From the NCBI RefSeq assembly GCF_025628885.1, contig NZ_JAOTIF010000002.1:62001-126000 (forward strand): a DNA stretch of 64,000 nt. The letters are read 5' to 3'. This document shows, piece by piece, positions 9,012 to 62,848 of this stretch. The translations under genes were made by a program, and so were the position numbers. The notes below the pieces were generated by a model. The model did not search any database. It was not told the DNA's origin and was given only the letters and a program-made list of their open reading frames with translations. Every line of letters starts with the position of its first letter. The stretch's first letter is position 1. This DNA is from Paraflavisolibacter caeni. Lineage in GTDB: Bacteria; Bacteroidota; Bacteroidia; Chitinophagales; Chitinophagaceae.

Positions 9012-9055
9012 ATTCGTCATTCCCAATTCGTCATTCGAATCATTCTTCATTCTCA
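9012..9055. repeat. 7-bp phased repeat before the acyltransferase gene
   Basis: Units ATTCGTC, ATTCCCA, ATTCGTC, ATTCGAATC, ATTCTTC and ATTCTCA follow each other on a 7-bp lattice with one 9-bp unit. It is non-coding and directly upstream of the TTG start at 9082. Confidence 0.6.
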
Positions 9056-14360: not shown

Positions 14361-14448
14361 TTTGGGAAATCTAATCAAAGGGTTTTTTCTTCACTTTGGT
14401 GGAAGATAATATAGTTCATCAGTACAATACTTCATCATTCGTAGATTC

Positions 14449-14624
14449 AGTATACATACAGTATACTTAAAGTAGGGCTAGAGTATTCCAACAGCGTCCC
14501 TCCATTTCCTCTACTTACCCCATACTTACTCCATACCTAAGCCGTACTTTAGGTATACATCAGCCGTACCTAAGCCTAGGCTACTTCGACCATCTTTCGA
14601 CTATCTTTCGACTATGCTTCGATC
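14449..14624. repeat. 11-bp phased degenerate repeat array (copy 1)
   Basis: Sixteen consecutive 11-base units lie on one lattice. Neighbouring units resemble each other most: AGTATACATAC, AGTATACTTAA, AGTAGGGCTAG, AGTATTCCAAC at the left; TTACCCCATAC, TTACTCCATAC, CTAAGCCGTAC, TTTAGGTATAC, ATCAGCCGTAC in the middle; CTACTTCGACC, ATCTTTCGACT twice and ATGCTTCGATC at the right. There is no coding frame. The same lattice and an AGCCGTAC unit recur at 60838-61090. Confidence 0.75.
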
Positions 14625-15006
14625 TGAATTGAGCAAATGCTCATAAATAAGGGGAAAACAACCTATAGGCAGAACGCCTTCAAAGCCCTGAACGGAGTCA
14701 ATGGAACTGCGCCTAAAGGTACAAAACCAACCCCCACCTTCCAAGTTTTGATCCCCCTCCCTTAACTCTACAATCCAAACTCCGAACCTCAAACCTTAAA
14801 CTTCAAATCCCCATATTCCGAAATCCCAAATCCCAAATCCGAAATCTCCTTAATCTTCCCTCCCCGTCTCTTCCTGTTAAAAAATACTTAAAGCCATTTT
14901 TTAAAGTAAATTCGACATGACAGTCCATGATAGTCACGTTGACAATTGCTAATACTTTTATGCGCGTTCTACTATAAATTGTGCGCCATATAGAAAAAAT
15001 CTAACT
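14625..15006. other. gap upstream of the rhamnose cluster
   Basis: No gene seen. It contains the heptamer lattice at 14776-14845. The last 120 bases before rhaT should hold the rhamnose promoter, but I find no convincing TTTG/TAnnTTTG pair. The nearest candidates are TTG at 14939-14941 or 14946-14948 and the imperfect TAAATTG at 14975-14981. Confidence 0.5.
14776..14845. repeat. 7-bp phased repeat array
   Basis: Ten in-phase heptamers: CAAACTC, CGAACCT, CAAACCT, TAAACTT, CAAATCC, CCATATT, CCGAAAT, CCCAAAT, CCCAAAT, CCGAAAT. The 7-base period excludes a codon origin. It lies 150 bases after the 11-bp array, the same pairing as at 60781-61090. Confidence 0.7.
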
Positions 15007-24572: not shown

Positions 24573-24607
24573 GACAGATGGTAGTTATAAAACTTCTACC
24601 ATCTGTC
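24573..24607 (+). terminator. terminator of the rhamnose-lut cluster
   Basis: A perfect 12-bp inverted repeat (GACAGATGGTAG at 24573-24584, CTACCATCTGTC at 24596-24607) has an 11-base loop. The following sequence is pyrimidine-rich rather than a pure T-run, and its units ATCTGTC, ATCTATC, ATCTTTT lie on a 7-bp lattice. Confidence 0.75.
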
Positions 24608-24625
24608 ATCTATCATCTTTTCTCT

Positions 24626-39513: not shown

Positions 39514-42201
39514 ATGCATCCTAAAACGATGCCTAAACTCGTTATGTCTAAACCGTTCTATATGTCACTAAAGTTGCGTATCCTCCTATTGCCATTATTT
39601 ATAATGGCTTTTTCCATTTTCACTAATTGGGCTCATGCTCAGGATGCTTCCGGGCAAGCCAGCCCGTCCTCAGCAAGAGTAACATCAGATAAGGATGATT
39701 ATGCCCCCCGCTCTAATGCTGTTTTTACTGGCAGTGGATTTGCACCCGGCGATAGTGTTGTATTAAGGGTCAAAAATTTAAACCGGCCATGTAATACTGT
39801 ATCTGCAGACTCGTCTTATTTGCCTTGGACAGTGATAGCAGATGCCCAGGGTGCTTTTGTGACGAATTGGACAGTTTGTGATTGTAATGGGGATTCATTA
39901 AGACTAAAAGCGGTAGGGAAACAATCAGGTTTGATCGCGTATGCATATTTTACGGATGCCGACCAACCTCCTTCACTATCTGATGCAACAATAACGTATA
40001 CAAGTGGAAGTGCAACATATGGAGCAGTTGGATCTATCAGTTATGTAGTTTCAGTAACAAGAACAAGTACTGGTAATGAAACATCTAATTTAAGTATTAC
40101 ATCTTTATTGCCTGCTGGAGTAAGTGCTAGTTTTAACCCTTCATCTCTCAACTTTAAAAATAATCTACCAAATACGTTAACATCAACATTAACGATTACT
40201 GTTACAGCTTCAGCAAGTGCTGTAATAAATTCACCTTTTACTGTTGAAGTTAGAGGTAATGGCAATACTACCAAAAATCCAACTAGTTTGTTTACAATAT
40301 CAAAGGCAGATGCGACCTTCTCCATCACCGGCTATACGGGTGCTTACGATGGTACAGAGCATAAGGCCTCCGGTACGGCCACTGGTTTGAATGCCCTGGA
40401 TCTGACAAGCCTACTGAGCTTTGGTGCTGGTCAGACCAATGCACCAGGCGGTAAAGCTTCATGGAGCTTTGCAGGTAACAATAACTACAACTCCACTTCA
40501 GGCGAGGTAGATATTACGCTCTCACCAATCAATGCGACCTTCTCCATCACCGGCTATACGGGTGCTTACGATGGTACAGAGCATAAGGCCTCCGGTACGG
40601 CCACTGGTTTGAATGCCCTGGATCTGACAAGCCTACTGAGCTTTGGTGCTGGTCAGACCAATGCACCAGGCGGTAAAGCTTCATGGAGCTTTGCAGGTAA
40701 CAATAACTACAACTCCACTTCAGGCGAGGTAGATATTACGCTCTCACCAATCAATGCGACCTTCTCCATCACCGGCTATACGGGTGCTTACGATGGTACA
40801 GAGCATAAGGCCTCCGGTACGGCCACTGGTTTGAATGCCCTGGATCTGACAAGCCTACTGAGCTTTGGTGCTGGTCAGACCAATGCACCAGGCGGTAAAG
40901 CTTCATGGAGCTTTGCAGGTAACAATAACTACAACTCCACTTCAGGCGAGGTAGATATTACAATTTCGAAAGTTGATGCTTTTATAACTGTAAATGGTTA
41001 TTCTGGTGTCTACGACGGCAGCTCCCATGGAGCATCGGGAAAAGCTACTGGTGTAAATGGAGAAAATCTGACAAATCTTTTAACACTTGGTAACATTTTT
41101 ACTGATGCCCCTGGAGGTACAGCCAACTGGGACTTTGCTGGAACTACTAACTATAAGGCCACAAATGGTTCCGTTGATGTAAGAATATTTGCAATTCCTG
41201 TAGTTACGCTGTCAACTCCAAATCCTGTATCAGTTAATACCACGTCTACAATTACAGCAACAATGGGTGCTGACGTTTTCTATCCTAAATGGGTTTATAC
41301 AATTCCAGGTAGTAATATCAATTTAAATAGTCAAACTCAGTTAGGTATTACAAGCTCAACTCCTGTTGTATATTCAGTTTCTTTAAGTTATCAAGATGGA
41401 ATGGGTAAGTCATATACCTCACCTTCTATATACGCTGTATTTTATGATCCTAATGCAGGTTTTGTAACAGGTGGCGGTTGGATCAATTCACCGGCAGGTG
41501 CTTACAGAGCCAATCCTGAATTAACCGGTAAAGCAAATTTTGGCTTTGAGTCTAAATATGAAAAAGGAAAGTCCCTGCCAAGTGGTAACACGGAATTCCA
41601 ATTCCAGGCTGGCGATCTGAAGTTTAAGAGCTCAAACTATGAATGGCTGGTTATTGCCGGATCTAAGGCACAATATAAAGGGACAGGTGCTATCAATGGT
41701 TCTGGTAATTATGGATTTATGTTGACTGCCGGAGATGGTGATCTGGGAACTACTAAAAAGCCGGATTATTTCCGTATCAAAATCTGGAATACACTTGATA
41801 ACCAAATTGTTTATGACAACCAGTATGGAGCCGCAGATAATGCAGATTTAACAACACAACTTGGCGGCGGTTCTATTGTAATACATGAAACCAAATCTTC
41901 TGGTAAGTCAACAATCGCAGCCAATGTGCAAGGCAACGATATTCTTATAGAAGAAAGTTCAGAACTGTCTGTGAAGGTGCTGCAAAATCCAAGTGCAACA
42001 GAATTTGCTTTGGTAGTAAGTGGAAACAGTAACGAGCCTGTGGAAATCCGGGCTGTATCTTTAACTGGCAATTTGGTTTATGTTACCAAAGGGGCAGCTA
42101 ACCAAACATACCGGTTTGGCAGAAATCTGTCAGCAGGCATGTACATTGTCGAAGTAAGACAAGGTAATACTGCGAAGACGATCAAATTGGTGAAGGAATA
42201 A
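39514..42201 (+). CDS. secreted T9SS-sorted protein with MBG-type repeats
   Basis: This 895-residue protein has an N-terminal export signal: hydrophobic residues follow several possible Met starts, with LRILLLPLFIMAFSIF then AHAQ. The middle carries four MBG-like bacterial Ig repeats: three identical 74-residue copies (ATFSITGYTGAYDGTEHKAS start each) and one diverged (AFITVNGYSGVYDG). The repeat DNA is at 40312-40961. Then comes VTGGGWINSPAGAY and a beta-rich domain. The C-terminus (LSVKVLQNPSATEFALVVSG, then GMYIVEVRQGNTAKTIKLVK) is a type A T9SS sorting domain. It is probably a cell-surface adhesin. The start is uncertain between ATG 39514 and ATG 39562. Confidence 0.85.
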   Translation: MHPKTMPKLVMSKPFYMSLKLRILLLPLFIMAFSIFTNWAHAQDASGQASPSSARVTSDKDDYAPRSNAVFTGSGFAPGDSVVLRVKNLNRPCNTVSADSSYLPWTVIADAQGAFVTNWTVCDCNGDSLRLKAVGKQSGLIAYAYFTDADQPPSLSDATITYTSGSATYGAVGSISYVVSVTRTSTGNETSNLSITSLLPAGVSASFNPSSLNFKNNLPNTLTSTLTITVTASASAVINSPFTVEVRGNGNTTKNPTSLFTISKADATFSITGYTGAYDGTEHKASGTATGLNALDLTSLLSFGAGQTNAPGGKASWSFAGNNNYNSTSGEVDITLSPINATFSITGYTGAYDGTEHKASGTATGLNALDLTSLLSFGAGQTNAPGGKASWSFAGNNNYNSTSGEVDITLSPINATFSITGYTGAYDGTEHKASGTATGLNALDLTSLLSFGAGQTNAPGGKASWSFAGNNNYNSTSGEVDITISKVDAFITVNGYSGVYDGSSHGASGKATGVNGENLTNLLTLGNIFTDAPGGTANWDFAGTTNYKATNGSVDVRIFAIPVVTLSTPNPVSVNTTSTITATMGADVFYPKWVYTIPGSNINLNSQTQLGITSSTPVVYSVSLSYQDGMGKSYTSPSIYAVFYDPNAGFVTGGGWINSPAGAYRANPELTGKANFGFESKYEKGKSLPSGNTEFQFQAGDLKFKSSNYEWLVIAGSKAQYKGTGAINGSGNYGFMLTAGDGDLGTTKKPDYFRIKIWNTLDNQIVYDNQYGAADNADLTTQLGGGSIVIHETKSSGKSTIAANVQGNDILIEESSELSVKVLQNPSATEFALVVSGNSNEPVEIRAVSLTGNLVYVTKGAANQTYRFGRNLSAGMYIVEVRQGNTAKTIKLVKE
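40312..40961 (+). repeat. three-copy 222-bp tandem repeat encoding MBG modules
   Basis: Units start at 40312, 40534 and 40756 (GCGACCTTCTCCATC each); the third ends at 40961. Read side by side the copies look identical over 206-222 bases, including third codon positions. The unit is 74 codons. By eye it is GC-richer than flanking coding DNA. Confidence 0.9.
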
Positions 42202-60290: not shown

Positions 60291-60647
60291 TTAAACCTCC
60301 GTAGCTTTTTCAGTTCCTGTAGGTACGCCACTTCTCTTCTTTGCATTGTACTCAACGGCGTATTTATCGAGTTTTGTAGCCAAGTGACGCAATACAGATT
60401 CGTCACGCAGAAGCTGTATTTTCAGCTTCTCATTGAAGTCGGATGGCGCAGTAAATTCCACAACCCAGTACAAACCAGTGGTTTTTTTCTGGATGGGATA
60501 CGCCAGTGATTTTAATCCCCAAGGATTTTCAGCCACAATCTGACCACCGTTTTCGGTAACCAGGCTTGTGTACTTTTTCTGAGCATTTTTAAACTCGTCA
60601 TCGCTCAGAACAGGGGTAAAAATCACCATCAATTCATAATTGTTCAT
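60291..60647 (-). CDS. rpsF: 30S ribosomal protein bS6
   Basis: This 118-residue protein is bS6: [40 protein letters not shown] and [20 protein letters not shown] are characteristic. The frame is open further upstream to 60788, but the ATG at 60645-60647 is the family start, and the leader has a -7 box at 60686-60693. The start has only a weak AGGG close to the ATG, unlike the next two genes. It is first in rpsF-rpsR-rplI. Confidence 0.96.
60296..60300 (-). promoter_or_regulatory. strong Shine-Dalgarno sequence of rpsR
   Basis: GGAGG on the minus strand is 7 bases before the rpsR ATG and is formed by the last Glu-Val codons of rpsF. Confidence 0.85.
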
Positions 60648-60685
60648 TTCCCTGCGTATTTTGTTAAAAAATAAAAATTGGAGCG

Positions 60686-60693
60686 CAAAGGTA
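60686..60693 (-). promoter_or_regulatory. -7 box of the rpsF operon
   Basis: TACCTTTG on the minus strand matches TAnnTTTG exactly, 38 bases before the rpsF ATG. The expected start would give a leader of about 33 bases. No good -33 TTG is seen. Confidence 0.55.
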
Positions 60694-60780
60694 ATAGGAA
60701 ACGAGTATATGTAATATTTTATTTGTGATTTTAACCCTAGATTGGCAACAATAAACCCTTTACCATATCCCAATAAACCC

Positions 60781-60829
60781 TCTATCATCTCTCATCTACC
60801 ATATTTTCTCCCCCAATCGTCATTCCACT
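60781..60829. repeat. 7-bp phased repeat array
   Basis: Heptamers TCTATCA, TCTCTCA, TCTACCA, TATTTTC, TCCCCCA, ATCGTCA and TTCCACT run in phase and end 8 bases before the 11-bp array. Just upstream, CAATAAACCC occurs at 60749 and 60771, 22 bases (two 11-bp units) apart. Confidence 0.6.
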
Positions 60830-60837
60830 CATTTACC

Positions 60838-61090
60838 TTATAGTAATCTTATAGGAAACTTACCGTAAAGTTATAGTAAACATATAGTAGAGTTATAGTA
60901 AACATTAGCCGTACATCCTAACTACATCCTCCCTATATACTCCTCGACCACTCCTATACTACTCCGGATCAACCCCGTATCTACCATATACCTACGCCCT
61001 ACTATCCCCTTATCTAACCCACTCATACCTTCTGGATAGCTGAAGCATACCGGAAGCACACCTGAAGCATACTTACAGCATACCTGAAGC
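60838..61090. repeat. 11-bp phased degenerate repeat array (copy 2)
   Basis: Twenty-three consecutive 11-base units fit one lattice without slips. The left block has TTATAGTAATC, TTATAGGAAAC, TTACCGTAAAG, TTATAGTAAAC, ATATAGTAGAG, TTATAGTAAAC. Then come ATTAGCCGTAC, ATCCTAACTAC, ATCCTCCCTAT and degenerate C/T-rich units. The right block has ATAGCTGAAGC, ATACCGGAAGC, ACACCTGAAGC, ATACTTACAGC, ATACCTGAAGC. It fills the gap between the rpsF promoter and the recJ 3' end and is non-coding. Confidence 0.8.
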
Positions 61091-61123
61091 ACGAAACAGA
61101 TTTTTACTCCCCCAACCCCAAGC

Positions 61124-62848
61124 TTAGACATCATTCTCATCATCTTCCGGCGTTTCCCTGATATCCAGAACCTTAAGTTGCAGGTTCTTCTCGCCATTCC
61201 AGTCGTTCTCATCTATTTTAAAAACAATATCAACAGGGTTTCCTGTTAAGAGTAGGGGCATTTTGTCGGCCATGCCAAAACCAATGCCTGTAAAAGTGAT
61301 GTTGTCCTGTTTGACAACAAAACGGAGGTGGGATTCTTTGACCACTTTACTATAGCCGGTATTATATATATATCTGGCCACAAAGGTGGGACGTACATTA
61401 TCTGGCCCAAATGGCTCCATCTGGCAAAGAATATCATAAAAGGGCTGCCGGATGTCACTAAACTTGATTTCTGCATCAATGACAATTTCCGGGATCAGCA
61501 ATTCAGGGTGTATGGAGGCCTGAACTACCTCTTCAAATTTTTGACAGAAGGCATCTACTTTATCGAGTTCCAGCGTCATGCCGGCTGCATAAAAGTGGCC
61601 GCCATAGCCTAAAAGCAGGTCTTTACACTGGTGGACAGCTTCGTAAACATTGAATCCGGCAACGCTCCTGGCAGAGCCGGATACATAATCCCCGGACTGG
61701 GTAAGGATAATCGTAGGCCGGTAATAATAATCTATTAACCGTGAAGCCACAATGCCAACCACCCCTTTATGCCAGTGTGGTTGAAATAGAACGGTACTTT
61801 TGCGGTTAACCAACAAAGCATCGCTCTCAATAAGAGTAAGGGCTTCTTCAGTGATGCTGCTATCAGCCTCTTTGCGGTGGCTGTTATCCACATGAAGTGC
61901 TTCTGCCCATTGCATAGCCTCATCCAGGCTTTCTGCTACAAACATTTGCACCGCTTTCCGGGCATCATCCATTCTGCCGGCAGCATTTACCCTAGGAGCA
62001 ATGATAAATACAAGGTTTTGGATCTGGATAGTCTTTAAAAAACCACTCAGGATACTCAACGCCTTTATACCAAAATTCGGGTTGTCATTCGCCTTTTGTA
62101 AGCCATAATAAGCTAAAACCCGGTTCTCTCCGGTAATAGGGACAATATCCGCCGCAATTGCAGTTGCTACAAGGTCAAGAAAATGGAAGGCTTCCTCCTG
62201 GGGTAGCCCCATTTTTTGACAGAGGGCCGAAATAAGCTTAAAACCTACGCCACAGCCACAAAGATCCTTATAGGGATATGGACAGTTTAGTTGTTTGGGA
62301 TTCAGAATAGCCACCGCTTCGGGCAGAATTTCATCCGGTAGGTGATGGTCGCAAACAATAAAATCAATGCCTAGTTCTTTGGCATATTGGATGAGGTCCA
62401 CTGATTTAATGCCGCAGTCCAGCGAGATAATTAATGTATAATCCTGCTCAAATGCAAAGTCCACACCGGCCTTGCTAATGCCATAACCTTCCTTATAGCG
62501 GTGGGGAATATAAAATTCTGTATGGGAATAAAACTTTTTGATGAATTGGTACATGCACGCAACAGATGTGGTGCCGTCAACATCATAGTCTCCGAATACA
62601 AGTATTTTTTCTTCGTTAGCGAAAGCCTGCAAGATGCGGTCAACAGCCTTGTCCATGTCCTTCATGAGCCATGGATCATGCAAATCACTCAACTGTGGTC
62701 TAAAGAACTTTTTAGCCTGGCCAAAAGTTTCAATACCCCTCTGCACAAGGAGATTACACAAAACAGGGTGTATCTTCAATGCCTGGTAAAGAGCATCAAC
62801 CTTTTCCTTTTCAGCGCCACTAACCCTCCATCTTTTTTGCTTGCTCAT
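61124..62848 (-). CDS. recJ: single-stranded-DNA exonuclease RecJ
   Basis: This 574-residue protein is RecJ. The DHH catalytic core has LVFGDYDVDGTTSVACMYQF near residue 80, LIISLDCGIKSVD and FIVCDHHLPDE (DHH). The DHHA1 part has LLGYGGHFYAAGMTLE, and an OB-fold end follows. It is a 5'-3' single-strand exonuclease in recombination, mismatch and base excision repair. It is 2 bases downstream of the polyprenyl synthase stop, so co-transcribed with it. Confidence 0.96.
   Translation of the reverse strand: MSKQKRWRVSGAEKEKVDALYQALKIHPVLCNLLVQRGIETFGQAKKFFRPQLSDLHDPWLMKDMDKAVDRILQAFANEEKILVFGDYDVDGTTSVACMYQFIKKFYSHTEFYIPHRYKEGYGISKAGVDFAFEQDYTLIISLDCGIKSVDLIQYAKELGIDFIVCDHHLPDEILPEAVAILNPKQLNCPYPYKDLCGCGVGFKLISALCQKMGLPQEEAFHFLDLVATAIAADIVPITGENRVLAYYGLQKANDNPNFGIKALSILSGFLKTIQIQNLVFIIAPRVNAAGRMDDARKAVQMFVAESLDEAMQWAEALHVDNSHRKEADSSITEEALTLIESDALLVNRKSTVLFQPHWHKGVVGIVASRLIDYYYRPTIILTQSGDYVSGSARSVAGFNVYEAVHQCKDLLLGYGGHFYAAGMTLELDKVDAFCQKFEEVVQASIHPELLIPEIVIDAEIKFSDIRQPFYDILCQMEPFGPDNVRPTFVARYIYNTGYSKVVKESHLRFVVKQDNITFTGIGFGMADKMPLLLTGNPVDIVFKIDENDWNGEKNLQLKVLDIRETPEDDENDV

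Follow-up and report, generated by a model that had tools for sequence, protein, structure and literature searches.

The window, the whole stretch of 64,000 nucleotides analysed here, corresponds to positions 62001-126000 of contig C12 in genome G000 (7.0 Mb in 89 contigs). Within it, a gap of 480 bp separates two genes on the minus strand, taken to be rpsF (60291-60647) and recJ (61124-62848). This gap holds an array of degenerate 11-bp units at 60838-61090, and the locus reads as follows.

60291-60647, minus strand: rpsF (bS6), 5' end toward the array (ORF list, translation from 60647)
60778-60837, no strand assigned: left flank, a 7-bp TCTATCA-like array and a CATTCGTCATTCC-like stretch, common to some copies
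60838-60903, no strand assigned: left module of family A, six 11-bp units of the TTATAGTAA type, shared by the 13 best copies including the window copy
60904-61035, no strand assigned: middle module of family A, twelve degenerate C/T-rich 11-bp units, the first being a CCGTAC unit
61036-61090, no strand assigned: right module of family A, five GAAGC-like 11-bp units (lag-11 test, Tandem Repeats Finder)
61091-61110, no strand assigned: right end of family A, elsewhere GCACGAAACAGATTTTGACCCC, determined by aligned right ends; copies diverge past this point
61124-62848, minus strand: recJ, 3' end toward the array (ORF list; relatives found by search)

The array and its periodicity

The initial annotation described a lattice of 23 units, beginning with six TTATAGTAA-like units and ending with five GAAGC-like units, and both the lattice and the two blocks are real. 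The array measures 253 bp, or 23 x 11, and its self-identity at lag 11 is 0.603, as compared to a mean of 0.271 (sd 0.030) in 5000 dinucleotide shuffles, none of which came up to 0.603, be it at lag 11 or at another lag from 2 to 30. Echoes are found at lags 22 (0.554), 33 (0.491) and 44 (0.426), with identities of 0.216-0.309 at the remaining lags from 1 to 43. Taken singly, the three thirds have lag-11 identities of 0.652 (left), 0.529 (middle) and 0.756 (right), each reached by 0/2000 shuffles; for the middle module the value of 0.529 stands against 0.306 in shuffles (0/2000). Tandem Repeats Finder reports the array as three separate pieces. Neighbouring units of the core share 60% identity, which is below the near-perfect head-to-tail repetition of simple sequence repeats of the STRR or heptamer type.

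Coding had been dismissed because 11 is not a multiple of three. That argument is weak, since three units (33 bp) would encode an 11-residue repeat, but the conclusion is right: copies vary in 11-bp steps, so any reading frame would shift and the array is non-coding. The sole ORF of at least 60 aa that touches the array (60922-61212, minus strand, 96 aa) was rejected as a candidate, being another frame running out of recJ. A scan of 60600-61200 found no terminator, and a sigma-70 style scan of the same region, a model unsuited to Bacteroidota, gave four promoter-like sites versus 2.0 in shuffles. Arrays of 7 bp occur in the window at 60781-60802, 14785-14846, 9012-9052 and 24595-24618 (TCTATCA, AACCTCA/CAAATCC, ATTCGTC), and Tandem Repeats Finder further lists a 222-bp unit at 40310-40961 (2.9 repeats, 100% identity).

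Two related families in the own genome

The own genome contains at least 43 matches to 60700-61200 (40 of 99 candidates scored), the longest of which show 80-91% identity over 230-340 bp. The array is a dispersed repeat: rather than being a local array, 60838-61090 belongs to a dispersed family whose right end is defined. The initial annotation had made its reading depend on similar arrays occurring elsewhere, and they are present across the own genome and in the relative G017. The 13 best copies, including the window copy, can be aligned between CCTTATAGTAAT and GCACGAAACAGATTTTG, except that L011 lacks the right part, and many of the differences among them are whole units. Allowing one mismatch, the right end of family A is matched at 35 places genome-wide, 13 on the plus and 22 on the minus strand, as against 0 for the reversed control; a few of the 35 may be due to chance, for instance one reading GCAGGAAACAGATTTT. 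The conserved right end is short and beyond it the copies diverge. Left ends are blurred, since copies continue into 7-bp arrays or into more 11-bp units.

Further 11-bp arrays belong to family B, which is related to family A and is represented in the window by the following features.

14440-14627, no strand assigned: family B lattice, units of the GTATACC, CCGTACC and TTCGACTATC classes (Tandem Repeats Finder, lag scan)
14618-14757, no strand assigned: right part of family B and non-periodic tail, conserved across 29 aligned copies including the window copy
14714-14726, minus strand: 13-mer TTTTGTACCTTTA, common to G017 elements; CTTG lies 20 nt upstream of it, at 14742-14745 of the minus strand

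The tail of family B is conserved, non-periodic and about 120 bp long. The family B pattern has 43 genome-wide matches with at most three mismatches (22 plus, 21 minus; control 0), and at some loci A and B modules are joined in composite copies. When the 464 kb of contig C12 were scanned for arrays with an identity of at least 0.55 over 66 bp, 13 were found at lag 11 and nine at lag 7, with 0 or 1 at each of lags 8, 9, 10, 12, 13, 16, 17, 19, 20 and 23. One of the 13 (C12:349299) is GATGGAT-like and falls outside families A and B. The spacing is equally strict at the level of a single motif, as 66 of 69 CCGTAC pairs at most 24 bases apart in the own genome are spaced by exactly 11 or 22 bp. 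Comparison of 60780-61112 with plasmids and phages gave no match at E 1e-5. Carriage by viruses was rejected, since the sole viral-contig hit, to an 18-base end motif, lies in a helicase-like ORF that has no array and is due to chance.

Gain and loss of units

The cores of the 13 family A copies measure 169, 186, 197, 208, 219, 230, 241 (three copies), 256, 260, 263 and 268 bp. Core length equals 10 modulo 11 in 9/13 A and 13/23 B copies and lies off this 11-bp ladder in the other 4/13 and 10/23. The absence of any slip, noted initially, is thus true of the window copy and not of the family, in which four of the 13 full-length A cores are off the common ladder. Between nearest copies, gaps are multiples of 11 in 14/45 cases for A, 51/100 for B and 0/53 for the B tail; gaps of other lengths make up 31/45 in A, mostly of 1-4 bp, and 49/100 in B. 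Substitutions between nearest copies number 105 of 2091 in A, 259 of 3436 in B and 152 of 2703 in the B tail. Density being alike in lattice and tail, the lattice is no more conserved than the rest. The pattern is that expected when units are added and removed through slippage or unequal recombination, rather than that of a phase kept by strong selection. This agrees with the early suggestion of growth by local duplication and drift: adjacent units are the most similar, and length differences of 11, 22 or 33 bp are frequent within the family.

Genomic context of the arrays

Context was determined for 35 array calls from 20 fetched loci, one locus being present twice, some having two arrays and 1/20 having no call. 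Overlap with any ORF of at least 90 aa is 60 bp or less in 33/35 calls, and two of the 35 calls overlap such an ORF. Flanking genes are divergent in 11 cases, codirectional in 17 and convergent in seven; among all C12 gaps that reach 250 bp the corresponding numbers are 22, 46 and 15. Where the flanking genes are codirectional, coding and G-poor strand coincide in 10/17 cases. The proteins flanking different loci have no mutual homology at E 1e-4. This mixture of contexts and strands argues against a role bound to one side of a gene. A role in 5'-UTRs was rejected since array orientation relative to the neighbours is mixed, both in the 35 calls and in a short-flank survey in which many neighbours are undefined.

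Relatives of the same genus

One genome per species was compared. The initial annotation had proposed the rpsF-recJ gap of related strains as a point of comparison, and there the array has no counterpart in the five genus members in which both genes are adjacent and codirectional within the fetched locus: the gap measures 207 bp in G010, 214 bp in G008, 285 bp in G003, 312 bp in G012 and 304 bp in G016 (Cnuella takakiae), and in all five the array is absent. The locus of G016 contains the recJ stretch of the named Cnuella takakiae record letter for letter, which places the host in Chitinophagaceae, within the GTDB genus that it shares with G016. In 11 other genus members rpsF has no match in the fetched recJ flank, and in G017 it has the opposite direction. 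By eye, 9-bp units resembling GTCTTTACT form an array in the gap of G016 (L210), where they are seen in both strand orientations.

At the DNA level, 16 of the 17 other genus members lack family A and all 17 lack the tail of family B. The lone family A match is L049 (G014:C150:1819-1865; 47 bp, E 7.5e-4). Under the strict threshold no 11-bp arrays were detected in G004 (200 kb), G010 and G005 (140 kb each), G016 (100 kb), G008 and G003 (60 kb each), nor near recJ in 80 named records (590 kb). Degenerate 8-bp arrays occur at L242:7697 and L244:14239 (G010) and at L248:1723 and L251:19108 (G005). The halves of the G010 arrays look complementary, (CAAGTTCA)n followed by (ACTTGTGA)n, such that a long hairpin would be possible.

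The second species G017

The recJ of G017 is 75% identical to that of the own genome. In 500 kb of G017 DNA, with the few bases around G016 counted apart, a threshold of 0.56 gave nine arrays at lag 11, eight at lag 8, five at lag 12 and 52 at lag 7; lag 7 having the highest count and lag 8 being close to lag 11, the period of 11 is less dominant here. The G017 arrays fall into unit classes known from G000. CCGTAC pairs are spaced by 11 or 22 bp in 31/36 cases, CCTTCGA pairs by multiples of 11 in 4/4, and there are 15 ATAGTAA pairs versus eight in the control. At the five loci listing both CCGTAC and ATAGTAA pairs nearby, the ATAGTAA units precede CCGTAC on the same strand, which is the order of family A. 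The 11-bp unit length, the classes of units and the order of modules thus persist between two species, although DNA searches with the A and B elements of the own genome gave no match in the second, which separates inherited features (period, order, end) from drifting ones.

The terminus of family B is also shared. The 13-mer TTTTGTAYCTTTA occurs 24 times in the sampled DNA of G000, 20 times in that of G017 and once in the other sampled genomes, with G000 and G017 samples picked in part around arrays. Downstream of it, lag 11 is the best of lags 7-12 in 24/24 G000 and 15/20 G017 cases. Four G017 copies of about 1.1 kb run from this 13-mer, which has a mismatch in one of them, to the stop codon of an orphan gene (200-203 aa; MARQAGPLFITGTIDD...) or slightly beyond it, by a few bases. 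Identity is 86-92% in five of the six pairs that they form, the remaining pair not being listed at 85%, and the four have both ends in common and otherwise unrelated flanks.

Nature of the element

Fixed right ends, the occurrence of both orientations and unrelated flanks make it likely that the copies move as units. No terminal inverted repeats were identified in the four long G017 copies or in window copies A and B, the latter two with approximate left ends (634-1000 of 1000 shuffles reach the scores). For target-site duplication, the longest flank repeat of the four G017 copies is 0-3 nt, a length reached by 244-500 of 500 random pairs. The only transposase type searched, Y1/RAYT (Y1_Tnp, PF01797), has no member in the own genome and was detected in 5/14 control genomes; a REP/RAYT element was therefore rejected. 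The element is short, non-coding, multi-copy and mainly intergenic, like a MITE, but with inverted ends and target duplication missing it is not filed as one.

The reading we favour, with moderate confidence, is that the array represents one copy of a non-coding repeat of mobile type that is dispersed in the genome and has a decayed 11-bp minisatellite as its core. Copies would be inserted as whole units by an activity provided in trans, after which units would be won and lost by slippage or unequal recombination, and drift. A family A copy would have come to lie between recJ and rpsF, with no effect on either gene required.

The element is probably non-autonomous with a minisatellite core, and the closest kind that was found is BrickBuilt of Porphyromonas gingivalis, a minisatellite-containing MITE with a leader, a tail and a 23-nt unit, present in 19 copies in one strain, whose terminal inverted repeats resemble those of known IS elements and which has target-site duplications in three of four testable copies (PMC4596501). 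Both elements belong to Bacteroidota, are dispersed and intergenic and have a limited host range, and both consist of spacer-free tandem units, the number of which varies among BrickBuilt copies and strains. They differ in the unit (23 nt versus a degenerate 11 bp), in the inverted repeats and target duplications, neither of which was found here, and in number, 19 copies in one strain versus 35 and 43 right-end matches. The comparison of leader and tail draws for one end on the B tail (29 copies) and the G017 leader (25); the other end is blurred. The initial statement that no element of this kind has been described was accordingly too strong (PMC4596501), even if no 11-bp intergenic element was present among the matches listed for open-licence PubMed Central.

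Ectopic recombination or gene conversion among intergenic arrays born by slippage, requiring no mobile element, would account for much of the same evidence. It agrees with the missing inverted repeats, target duplications and Y1 transposase, with the composite copies joining A and B modules and with the abundance of 7-bp arrays, but it has difficulty with a fixed right end common to 35 (A) and 43 (B) places, with four 1.1-kb G017 copies that share two identical ends between unrelated flanks, and with a module order that is alike in two species. We consider it unlikely, while deserving more weight than the functional readings that follow.

The dispersed mobile-type repeat that we favour can also be set beside other intergenic repeats. 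BIME/REP elements of enterobacteria are intergenic, mosaic, present in both orientations and of high copy number, all of which applies here; REP units differ in being palindromic and linked to a Y1 RAYT transposase, a type not found in the own genome. STRR of cyanobacteria are intergenic heptamer arrays. Arrays of the heptamer TAACTGA, reported as intergenic in Beggiatoaceae, Cyanobacteria and five Bacteroidetes, are likewise short direct repeats that are scattered and mostly intergenic, and 7-bp arrays share gaps with the present element; they consist of one heptamer, whereas the present element is about 250 bp long, multi-module, equipped with a defined right end and probably copied whole (PMC4679880). 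The 7-, 8- and 11-bp versions make the preference of intergenic arrays for certain unit lengths addressable within one genus. The present family also carries a warning that such gaps should not be read as regulating neighbours such as rpsF.

Transcription and RNA structure

A different reading is that the G-rich (minus) strand is transcribed into a non-coding RNA, with a promoter, a hairpin leader and the 11-nt array serving as scaffold or sponge. The -7 box consensus of Bacteroidota is TAnnTTTG. The 13-mer TTTTGTAYCTTTA, which opens family B in G000, usually with CTTG 19-20 nt upstream (by eye), resembles it, and a putative promoter reading the G-rich strand is possible. In G017 the upstream CTTG is present in just 8/25 leaders (by eye), and family A has no such end.

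Of 30 G017 leader rows, five unrelated ones were removed before alignment. In the 25 kept, a 5-bp hairpin has 81.7% of its cells paired and 13 cells changed on both sides; 0/500 shuffles reach the paired share, the number of two-sided cells or the covariation score, and on these three measures the unslid register is the best. Against this, the count of pairs that show two-sided change is reached by 42/500 shuffles and that of pair types by 394/500, and on both a slide of -1 beats the true register. RNAalifold predicts no pairs in these leaders, and in the 29 B tails it predicts 14 pairs, none with two-sided change.

The lattices fold like shuffles, save for the plus strand of family B. For the two strands of family A the z values are 0.9 and -0.3 (core) and 0.8 and 1.2 (left module); for family B they are -2.2 for the lattice and -1.6 for the tail on the plus strand and -0.4 for both on the minus strand. 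Rfam gave no match at gathering score in the window, and in five loci a single match (E up to 1), outside the element of L198, with 27.2 bits against a gathering score of 50. The structured RNA put forward initially gains little or no support, in view of the shuffle-like folding of family A on both strands, the lack of two-sided change in the B tail and the absence of Rfam gathering matches, and we regard a transcribed RNA as quite unlikely.

Helical phasing

Units one helical turn apart could also form a DNA-shape or wrapping site for a nucleoid protein or gyrase, and BIMEs are said to bend or wrap DNA for such proteins in enterobacteria. The exact 11-bp period, the intergenic position and the lack of a fixed orientation fit such a site, as do the 16 of 41 TA steps that fall in one phase in the window copy. 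A period of about 11 bp is, moreover, commonly linked to negatively supercoiled DNA; the genome-wide periodicity of bacterial DNA is a dinucleotide bias, in cyanobacteria mainly coding, and while the period is alike the present array differs in being a tandem repeat at the sequence level (PMC4132750). Over 81 own arrays the excess phase power is 0.04 for TA, 0.57 for CG, 0.22 for TT and 0.19 for AA, and TA-step phasing as a shape code was rejected on this value for TA. Copies of slipped phase occur, and the 140-kb samples of G010 and of G005 have 8-bp and no 11-bp arrays, all of which makes a wrapping site very unlikely. Together, the helix-face and RNA functions proposed initially have little support.

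Orphan genes adjoining the arrays

The orphan proteins at the end of the long G017 copies share the motif order MARQ...GTI...FY. They have no Pfam match below E 0.16 (three proteins), no match in PHROGs or NCBIfam (two proteins each) and no relative on plasmids, phages or viral contigs. The sampled DNA, picked in part around arrays, contains ten such genes: nine in G017, at L298:7102-7713 (minus strand), L225, L164, L166, L231, L284, L287, L292 and L314, one of them matched only in residues 1-108, and one in G003 (L258).

With a loose threshold, 9/10 of these genes have an 11-bp array within 600 bp upstream, and with a stricter one 5/8 loci do. In an unselected 900 kb of G017, the loose detector, which finds 54 arrays at lag 11 versus 17-140 at the other lags from 7 to 16, places an upstream array at 4/5 MARQ genes as compared to 154/4000 random positions and to 38/213 ORFs with an upstream gap of at least 300 bp. 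Under the stricter threshold the counts are 3/5 versus 22/213, and 0/1 in G003, where a clear 11-bp lattice is nonetheless visible to the eye. Control lags of 8-10, 12 and 13 give 0 or 1 of 5, and lags 7 and 14 give 2/5 (loose). Two of the four array-bearing cases, L225 and L314, are 75% identical to each other. Since the background of long upstream gaps is the fairer one, the association is only modest, and we regard it as suggestive, not firm. The 733 kb of the own genome that were searched are rich in arrays and gave no MARQ gene, so an array can exist without the gene next to it.

A two-part element would consist of the 11-bp lattice with its 13-mer TTTTGTAYCTTTA in cis and the orphan protein of about 200 aa, the genes of which have such lattices upstream in two species, in trans, this protein recognising the lattice once per helical turn and driving its copying or expansion. 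We hold this to be highly improbable; if true, it would amount to a new kind of genetic element, and the gene at the end of the long copies offers a concrete candidate protein for study. Least probable of all is that the arrays are the upstream regions of MARQ-type genes in G017 and G003, with gene-less arrays as remnants, as the excess over random and long-gap positions and the low control lags would suggest; against it stand the weaker counts under the stricter threshold, lags 7 and 14, the lack of MARQ genes in 733 kb of the own genome, and adjoining arrays that belong to different families and occur in both orientations.

About 100 bp before the start codon, ATGTGTATAACTAAA is common to eight G017 MARQ upstream regions, four of which are near-copies of each other.
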